Part shown: positions 2,151-5,100 of the stretch, piece by piece | Layout of the letters: the number at the start of each line of letters is the position of its first letter | Numbering within the stretch: position 1 is the first letter of the stretch | Notes under the pieces: model-generated | What the model was told of the DNA's origin: nothing | Databases searched by the model: none | What the model saw: only the letters and a program-made list of their open reading frames with translations | NCBI GenBank assembly: GCA_963930775.1 | Contig: OZ005702.1 | Location: 3,720,001 to 3,784,000, forward strand | DNA length: 64,000 bases | Source: Cliona cf. orientalis | Lineage: Eukaryota; Porifera; Demospongiae; Clionaida; Clionaidae | Reading direction: 5' to 3' | Position numbers and translations under genes: made by a program

Positions 2151-5100
2151 GTGAAATGCTTACAGTGTTTGTATTTGCCACCAGAAAATGACTATACCAA
2201 ATCTCAACTACATACATTGTACATGTAGTGATTTCTTTGGATGTTTCATAGGTCAGAAATATTGAAAAACAAAGCTTATACAGATAGCTTGAATGTGCAA
2301 GTAGTTGCTTTGACCTCATTGATGACTATCCATGGCACGCACCTTTGTAATGTTATGTTTCTTATGTTCTATCCCACGTCAACCCTAAGGTGCACTATTA
2401 AGTGGTTACTAAACATTGTTTTTGTACATACAGAGAGTGAAGGATGTCATATTGGAATCCAATCCCCTTTTGGAGGCTTTTGGTAATGCCAAGACTGTCA
2501 GAAACAACAATTCAAGCCGATTTGTGAGTTTAACTAACATGTACATGTACATGTACATGTAATTGCATGTGTGCCTGACCAATGTGATCATTCAGGGAAA
2601 GTACTTTGAGATTCAATTCTCAAGAGGAGGACAGCCTGATGGAGGAAAGATATCGAATTTTCTCCTTGAAAAGGTAAAGTTTCATGTGCATAATGACATG
2701 ATGAACTCAAATGTACATGCATGAGGGGTACCATAGTCGTTTTGTTTGTGTATGTGTGCATCCGGATTTTTTCTCTTCCAGCTAGCTTTAGGATGTAGAT
2801 GGGGTGATTAGAGTGTGTGTGCCCATCCTTGTTAAGCTAAGAACTTCATGTAATTAATATTGTTGGGGCTCTGTGCTTTGGTGATTTAATTATCCCGGCA
2901 GACTCCGTGAACGTAGTTTGGGTATAGGGTTGACTTTCGCCCTTAAAGCTGGAAGGGGGGAGTTCGGGTGCCTAAGGGTGGTCGTAGCTCAGTGGTAGAG
3001 CGCTGGTGGCTCAAGTCAGTGGCCCTGGGTTCGATTCCCGGCGGCTGCCCGGATTTTTTCTCTTCCAGCTAGCTTTAGGATGTAGATGGGGTGATGAGAG
3101 TGTGTGTGCCCATCCTTGTTAAGCTAAGAACTTTCATGTGTCTGTTGAGGTATGTTCCTAATCTAAAAATGGATGAAAATGGTCAGTACAAAATCTTCCA
3201 TATTTGGATGATTCTTGGACTTAATTCAAAAATCTTCCGTATTTGGATGATTATTGTTCATTTGTCTCTATAGAGAGACTAATGTCATCTATAATCATCC
3301 AATTATGGATGTTTTTGAACATCCGATAATGGATGATTCTATAATCATCCAATGATGGACGATTCTTATCATCAATTTATGGATGATTCTTATGCTTAAT
3401 AAACATCATCCAAAAATGGATGATTCTTATCATCAGTTTATGGATGTTTCTAGTATGGAACAAGATTCATCCAATAATAGATGATTCTTATCATCAATTT
3501 ATGGATGATTCTTATGCTAGATAAACATCATCCAAAAGTGGATGATTCCTATCATCAGTTTATGGATGTTTCTAGTATGGAACAAGATTTGTCCAAAAGT
3601 GGATGACTCTTGTCATTAGTTTATGGATGTTTCTAGTATGGAACGAAGTTCATCCAATAATAGATGATTCTTATCATCAACTTATGGATGATTCTTATGC
3701 TAGATAAACATCATGGATGATTCTTATCATCAGTTTATGGATGTTTCTTGTGCAGGTTATATATCGTCCAGTACTGGATGCTTCTTAGCTGTTACATAAT
3801 TTGTCATTAAGTTTTAATGGTGCATGATGATAAGTATTGTAATGTACATGTACAAAGTCAGAGTAAGCTAAGTTATGGTTAGTTCTACTTTCTTCTTGGG
3901 CATCTAATAGCTAATGGTGTTGGCTTTTCACTCAAGGGATCATACACCTTTCTCTGTTTCCTCCTTGGCCTTTCTTGCTCTTCCTCTTCTACGTTTTCTT
4001 TATCCTCTTCAATATTTGTTTGTCTCATTCTTTTCCTGCTGGGATCCGGAAGTAGTCGACTAGCAGGAGAGCCTGATGGGGGTGGCAGTGGTCGCAATTC
4101 TTCAGGTTCGAAAGATCTACTCCCATGGCTGTCCTCTGGATCTTGTTGAACATACGTTTCTGGATCAAGATCATGGTGTTGGTAGCAACTACGAATTATT
4201 TCTCGTAATCCATCACTCCAGTTTCCTGTACAAATATAATGCATATGATCATCACCCACTATACTACATGATTATACTATGTATACAAAATGTTATTATG
4301 GTTACCTTCAAACTCAGCGGGAGCTGATGTGACACTTTGGAATGGAATGTTGGTGAGCCACCATACGGGCTTTTTTGACTTCCACGTTAACTTCATATCC
4401 TTCATCAGCCCTCGGATTATGCATTTCATTGTCAACCCATTGAGGATTGACAGTTCGCCTGGGAGTGGTGCGAGCATGACAGCTGTGGTGTGGGAAATAC
4501 CTTGGTCATCATCCATCCAATCAGGGTTAAGCAGAATTTCATCCTTATGCTTTTCAATAACTTGGGTAATCCTTGGATCACCAAGGACATAGAGTCCGTT
4601 TGTCTTGTTGGTAGAGTAGATCACTGCTACCTGCACACCTAAAGCCTTTAGCTCATCACATTTCTTGGTAATTTGTTCCAGTCGACGTTTGATGTCACGT
4701 GATGAGTTGTTCACTTGTCTTGAAGCCATGGGGATTAGTTTCTTGCTGATGAACTGTTCCAATTGAAGAATGCTGAGGATTGATTCAGCTTGAAGTATGA
4801 TGATGCTCTGAGGTTGGAGAATGAGTATCCACTACCAAAAGTGCTCATTTTATACTAGATGTTGGAGCTCAGATTGGTGCATTCTGCCCTGTGATGTCAC
4901 AAACTTCACACCTGCTTAATTGGACATAGGATATTTGAACATTCTTGATATGTTTCACATAAAATTGTTTCTAAGTATTACAAACATGGACAAAAGAGGT
5001 AGATTAGATTTAGAAAAAATATCCATCTAAATTTATGTAAATATTCATAGTATGCTGTTTGGATTATTAATTAATATTAATGATAACATTCATCCATTAT

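Follow-up and report, generated by a model that had tools for sequence, protein, structure and literature searches.

An NRF1-like gene beside a predicted KDZ transposase in transposons with palindrome-filled inverted ends in the sponge Cliona cf. orientalis

An NRF1-like gene within a transposon

The window considered here is a 64,000-nucleotide stretch of the genome of the sponge Cliona cf. orientalis (contig OZ005702.1, positions 3,720,001 to 3,784,000; G000:C14:3720001-3784000 in the 217 Mb, 149-contig assembly that was searched), and it contains an element of 2,695 bp (3147-5841) which carries a gene for a protein resembling the transcription factor NRF1. A sequence-only reading of the window had placed this gene inside a transposon, between two long inverted repeats, and this has been borne out. 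The left terminal inverted repeat (TIR; 3147-3787, plus strand) and the right one (5193-5841, minus strand) both contain 61-bp subterminal repeats, their arms (3160-3787 and 5193-5828) are 85% identical, and the element is flanked on either side by the 7-bp target-site duplication GTCTGTT (3140-3146 and 5842-5848, plus strand). The two ends, each of ~640 bp, are termed the B end (GAGGTATGTTCC, at 3147) and the A end (CAGGTATAGTCA, at 5841 on the other strand).

The NRF1-like gene lies on the minus strand (3885-4729, ATG to stop). Its exon 1 (4306-4729) aligns to the NRF1 dimerisation domain and to the beginning of the DNA-binding domain, and is separated by a single phase 1 intron of 80 bp (4226-4305; GT-AG, GTAACC...ACAG) from exon 2 (3885-4225, including the stop), which encodes a 16-residue motif and a basic tail; a possible TATA box, read from the sequence as the word TATAAAAT, is found upstream (4847-4854, minus strand). 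The intron and the lack of frame breaks had been described correctly, the spliced frame being open throughout from the ATG at 4729 to the stop at 3885. The length of the product, given earlier as 265 amino acids, requires revision: that frame starts at 4762, 11 codons upstream of the ATG, and because there is no ATG at 4762 and the close homologues P0001-P0004 likewise start with MASRQ, a product of 254 amino acids is likelier.

A 355-bp piece of the TIR has 111 matches in the genome, and three families have been defined by their end motifs, with A ends CAGGTATAGTCAAAATC, ..CAGAATC and ..CCGACTC and B ends GAGGTATGTTCCTAATC, ..CCTGATC and ..CCGAATC, respectively. When these motifs were sought at two mismatches, the counts (46+58 and 49+41) were not far above those of reversed-pattern controls (37+38 and 24+34), and for this reason the end-motif evidence is limited to close matches and paired ends. 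Both flanks were available for 15 of the 16 end pairs listed: nine have exact 7-bp target duplications, one matches at six of seven positions, one (on contig C6) has an 8-bp duplication and four have none, whilst 0 of 210 swapped end pairs, used as a control, reach 6 of 7 bp. A search with the joined flanks of the window element found no second place in the genome spanning both sides, the left flank being a dispersed repeat. That the window gene is simply a fixed host NRF1 gene surrounded by repeats is hardly credible given its target duplication, its TIRs and its repeated copies, although one NRF1-like gene elsewhere (C12:826405-831206, considered below) does appear to be fixed.

Relationship of the encoded protein to NRF1

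NRF1 is a conserved, usually single-copy regulator, and the transcription factors P3A2 and Erect wing are grouped with it. It regulates mitochondrial and housekeeping genes (PMC10810270). The likeness of the window protein to the NRF1 DNA-binding region, which the sequence-only reading had pointed out, proved to be real: residues 11-160 match positions 32-204 of the 213 in the Pfam profile PF10491 (Nrf1_DNA-bind) with 36.8 bits (E 4.4e-9), well over the curated cut-off of 23.5 bits; the best relative in the PDB is NRF1 (8k4l, E 3.1e-5); and a profile-profile comparison of 15 transposon-type rows with 13 vertebrate NRF1 rows gave 96.4% probability (E 1.1e-9). Scores are lower among the relatives. 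In a PF10491 scan of eight database homologues, seven reached 13 to 22 bits, under the cut-off, and P0021 gave no match; nor did the joined NRF1-like pieces of the C6 family match this profile. Another homologue, P0013, is precomputed as PF10491, and a permease match of P0018 (E 0.001) was put down to chance as a stray.

In common with NRF1, P3A2 and Erect wing, the protein has the same order of blocks and a KPxWW..(I/V)PF block, and it may have a MADS-like dimerisation region, as a low-confidence structure model suggests; it differs in being transposon-borne, in its short basic C-terminal tail and in altered base-contact residues. The same low-confidence modelling provides the likeness in fold of the N-terminal region to the MADS proteins SRF, MCM1 and MEF2, to which the sequence match is only E 0.18. 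A model built from the transposon rows alone was of no use (predicted local distance difference test score, pLDDT, 47), and a Foldseek search with a second, low-confidence model returned 189 matches, none at E 0.001 or better. Within the domain, identity to vertebrate NRF1 is 24-25%. In NRF1 the contacts to GCGC half-sites are made by R206, N242 and R244 (PMC10810270), and these positions are K, S and T in the window protein, several relatives having N where it has S. Because of these changes the protein, which appears NRF1-like by descent, is hardly expected to bind GCGC; a scan of the window element for NRF1-type sites found 0 GCGCN2GCGC and 0 TGCGC.

The KDZ transposase and the larger relatives

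Between the TIRs the NRF1-like gene had been described as the only gene; it is the sole intact one, but a second coding trace is also present at 4951-5095 (plus strand; match E 0.006), where the last piece of a KDZ transposase gene survives together with the sequence following it. Its 145 bp share 95% identity with the part of an element at C1:22.75 Mb in which a KDZ transposase ORF (open reading frame) ends, and 4949-4990 reads as a 14-residue peptide. This ORF of the C1:22.75 Mb copy has 64 genome matches at 43 loci. A longer relative, at C6:4360786-4361769, scores 26.0 bits against the KDZ profile PF18758, 0.6 below the cut-off of 26.6; the upstream frame scores 27.2 bits for the CxC4 cluster (cut-off 26.9). 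A database search with this C6 transposase gave 103 homologues at E 0.001; many of them are precomputed as PF18758, and one is 100% identical over 89%. Named homologues come from Branchiostoma, a nemertean, a jellyfish and bivalves. The predicted KDZ transposase thus belongs to the element family, and the window element was shown by sequence comparison to be an internally deleted, non-autonomous copy that retains a remnant only.

The assignment is to the KDZ superfamily as a whole, without placement in a branch. In a recent report, fungal Kyakuja elements are described as having 7-bp target duplications and as carrying TET/JBP genes, which are thought to counter silencing, and Zisupton as having an 8-bp duplication (Kojima 2025, PMC12730594). 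A duplication of 7 or 8 bp is expected of KDZ elements, and was found here as nine exact 7-bp cases and one of 8 bp among the 15 pairs. The present elements resemble the TET/JBP-bearing Kyakuja in the KDZ transposase with its CxC4 cluster, the 7-bp duplication and the presence of an accessory gene beside the transposase; they differ in that this gene is NRF1-like, and the fungal type of terminus (5'-CA..TG-3' without TIRs) was not seen among the ends examined, which have CAGG..CCTC and long, palindrome-rich TIRs.

In the larger relatives of the window element, a predicted KDZ transposase gene and an oppositely directed NRF1-like gene were shown to lie between long inverted ends filled with palindromes. 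One of them is at C6:4359023-4368629 (9.6 kb), where the two genes are divergent and enclosed by one end pair. Genome-wide there are 18 NRF1-like matches at 13 loci, counting the window's own two and those of distant families, and further copies lie within ends of the window's own TIR family at C1:17.62, C16:3.97 and C1:22.75 Mb. A KDZ match is listed within 10 kb of seven of the 13 loci (chance expectation 0.05). Conversely, no NRF1-like match is listed within that distance of 36 of the 43 KDZ loci; reading through 12 KDZ loci revealed NRF1-like pieces at two more (L060 and L063), and a weak piece at a further one (L067, E 0.003) was absent from a second reading of that locus. Five NRF1-like pieces are without KDZ (C1:21.63, C12:0.83, C13:2.25, C18:3.80 and C7:5.42 Mb), for which mostly short flanks were examined. 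The orientation of the NRF1-like gene also varies: it heads to the B end in the window and C6 elements and to the A end in those at C16, C1:17.62, C1:29.48 and C2:7.93 Mb, and because of this division (two against four) the interior seems to have been flipped between the inverted ends.

That a TIR element captured part of a host gene once and recently, with no function for the element, would account for some features of family 1, in which the whole gene is open in the window alone, while the copies at C1:17.62, C1:21.63 and C16:3.97 Mb have an exon 2 interrupted by stops or frame breaks and show no match to exon 1. It is nonetheless very improbable, as three TIR families and the more distant C6 family all have NRF1-like sequences (37 to 99% identity) alongside the transposase, and exon 1 is conserved across most of 22 database clusters. 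The options offered by the sequence-only reading (capture of the NRF1 domain, common origin or a transposon-borne regulator) were in the right range; the profile match is significant, and the gene recurs in TIR elements with target duplications.

Two other transposases were encountered in these copies. A piggyBac ORF (PF13843, E 6e-44) in the C1:21.63 Mb stretch was rejected as the family transposase and taken as a nested insertion; here, at C1:21626747-21634489 (L024, L003, L049 and L050), a family-1 TIR stands between transposase-like pieces, with the piggyBac transposase deeper inside. The flanking pieces presumably derive from a tnp2/DUF4218-type transposase gene, one of them gave no match against Pfam, and the whole is apparently a set of nested transposons. 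An ISXO2-like piece (PF12762, E 1e-20) in the C1:34.40 Mb copy was also discounted as the family transposase; this copy (L054, C1:34396799-34403332) is a 6.5-kb family-2 element with a 7-bp duplication.

Palindromes in the element ends

The ends of the elements are rich in palindromes. Every perfect 6+6 palindrome with a gap of 0-9 was counted in 11 elements, with no prior motif, and a gap of 4 was over-represented in all 11 (25 in the window element against a shuffle mean of 1.7, and 15 against 3.5 in C6). Of the ten elements of families 1-3, seven have CATCCA-N4-TGGATG as their commonest palindrome; it ties with GATGAT-N4-ATCATC in one, and is outnumbered by GATGAT-type or offset readings in two, including that in the window. 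In the C6 element the commonest is CTACCA-N4-TGGTAG, and the C6-family NRF1-like protein that goes with it is 40% identical to the window protein. Genome-wide, the first is present at 322 places, against 8 for the reversed pattern, and the second at 89 against 11. Among CCA-N4-TGG sites, the half-sites of families 1-3 have the consensus TGGATGAT and those of C6 have TGGTAGAT, with a weak last position in family 3 and C6.

In the window element there are 16 CCA-N4-TGG palindromes, seven in a left array (3198-3777) and nine in a right array (5094-5825), which reaches inward of the TIR. Eight are exact CATCCA-N4-TGGATG sites, starting at 3296, 3407 and 3529 on the left and at 5139, 5200, 5383, 5627 and 5677 on the right. 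Steps of 61-63 bp between palindromes repeat in families 1-3 and C6, alongside shorter and longer ones. All exact sites are within 800 bp of an end in 10 of the 11 elements, a limit that covers nearly the whole length of those of 1.7-2.1 kb, and 8 of 12 are so placed in the C1:34.40 Mb element. The CArG box is CC(A/T)6GG, and half of the window's 16 sites match it; a CArG/MADS site is ruled out as the shared rule because neither family 3 nor C6 constrains the spacer, which is all-A/T in 2 of the 30 sites of the C6 element.

Proposed role of the NRF1-like protein

These observations are probably best explained by a two-gene KDZ transposon in which an NRF1-like dimer binds the palindromes and aids either the transposase or the transcription of the element. 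The NRF1-like protein would dimerise via a putative MADS-like N-terminal domain and would bind the palindromes of both subterminal arrays, through half-sites TGGATGAT in the window element and TGGTAGAT in the C6 family; the bound dimer might then assist the transposase by pairing or marking the ends, or might set the level of element transcription. Having lost its transposase with its NRF1-like gene still open, the window copy would require a transposase from elsewhere in order to move. Such a role would parallel that of the accessory proteins which bind the terminal repeats of some plant and Harbinger-type transposons. En/Spm has a DNA-binding protein, TNPA, and arrays of short subterminal sites. 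Nuwa/Harbinger has a Myb/SANT protein as a separate component (PMC12730594). These two-component systems share with the sponge elements a transposase gene accompanied by a gene for a DNA-binding protein; they differ in belonging to other transposase superfamilies and using other DNA-binding folds.

Two observations weigh against an accessory role in transposition, and each favours a different alternative. The first is that the window copy kept its NRF1-like gene open after the loss of the transposase, as might be expected of a passenger or self-regulator for which the palindromes are promoter or enhancer sites, driving or repressing element transcription or re-wiring host genes. Kinship to a transcription factor and the presence of palindromes both upstream and downstream of the gene would agree with this, and it is a serious possibility, if not the favoured one; the sites fill both ends, however, with nine of 16 on the promoter side and seven on the other, a symmetry that fits end recognition equally well or better. 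The second is that a KDZ copy in which no NRF1-like gene was found has the same kind of palindrome, which could mean that the KDZ transposase itself binds the palindromes and that the NRF1-like protein has a separate function, for instance in escape from host silencing, by analogy with the TET/JBP genes of fungal KDZ elements (PMC12730594). Since both proteins vary along with the palindrome, this alternative keeps some weight, but it is rather unlikely, a dimeric NRF1-type protein being a natural reader of palindromes (PMC10810270).

Searches of the open-access literature, with most subscription journals lying outside them, turned up no published case of an NRF1 domain in a transposon, and PMC12062965 contains no mention of NRF1. 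What is new here is the NRF1-like accessory gene together with the palindrome-rich TIRs, the KDZ superfamily being already known. KDZ elements, known for TET/JBP, thereby gain a new kind of accessory gene, and an NRF1 domain carried beside a transposase would provide a natural experiment on change in NRF1-type DNA recognition, with hundreds of candidate sites of two half-site types in one genome. Such a transposon lineage would also allow a link between transposon genes and a host transcription factor to be put to the test.

A fixed relative and the direction of capture

A single-copy NRF1-like gene is found at C12:826405-831206, with exon 1 at ~826405-826870, a long exon 2 at ~828778-831206 and inferred splice sites; the surrounding 10.1 kb contains neither inverted repeats nor recurring palindromes. 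It scores 30.4 bits against PF10491, six database clusters contain relatives of its exon 1 that are 77-96% identical, and its inferred intron matches the intron of the transposon gene in both position and phase (FSG^SWTQAL and FEG^NWSDGL). A search of the genome with the vertebrate NRF1 domain for a canonical NRF1 gave only this gene (C12:826573, E 0.027); a Pfam family search found no match, but was uninformative, being silent in all 14 control genomes too. In a tree of 23 rows, in which four vertebrate rows represent canonical NRF1, the transposon genes and the C12 gene group together, separate from NRF1 (100/100), and the C12 gene adjoins the long-branched C6 transposon gene (89/95); a single clade of all transposon genes to the exclusion of C12 is not rejected (approximately unbiased test, p 0.129), the branches being long. 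The C12 gene may therefore be a domesticated transposon copy, or the transposon may have captured its gene from a C12-like host gene. An exon-1 alignment scanned against viral contigs and genome contigs found no relative. The basic C-terminal tail of the C12 product (831100-831206, YEDPSTAFRAKRQCRDKE) is faintly like that of the transposon protein, as judged unaligned.

A fuller scheme, in which a dimer of the NRF1 family reads the ends of a two-component KDZ transposon, its half-site has shifted from GCGC to TGGATGAT or TGGTAGAT along with the protein, and the C12 gene was domesticated, is unlikely to hold in every part. Should the C12 gene be a domesticated transposon gene, the question would arise of a transposon origin for the NRF1 family itself.

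Neighbouring sequences

To the left of the element, the stretch 2762-3139 of the window contains two 85-bp copies, 99% identical, of a unit with a tRNA-Glu gene (2978-3050). The unit is found at a minimum of 89 further places in the genome, at 95-100% identity, most of the matches ending at query base 111-115, and such units form tandem rows with a spacing of about 288 bp, for example eight in C7:7648258-7650386. The start of the element's target duplication, at 3140, coincides with the usual end of the unit. Further to the left, plus-strand exons at 2061-2675 carry the motifs GESGAGKT and NNNSSRFGKYFEI and are taken to be part of a myosin head gene, beyond which the element lies.
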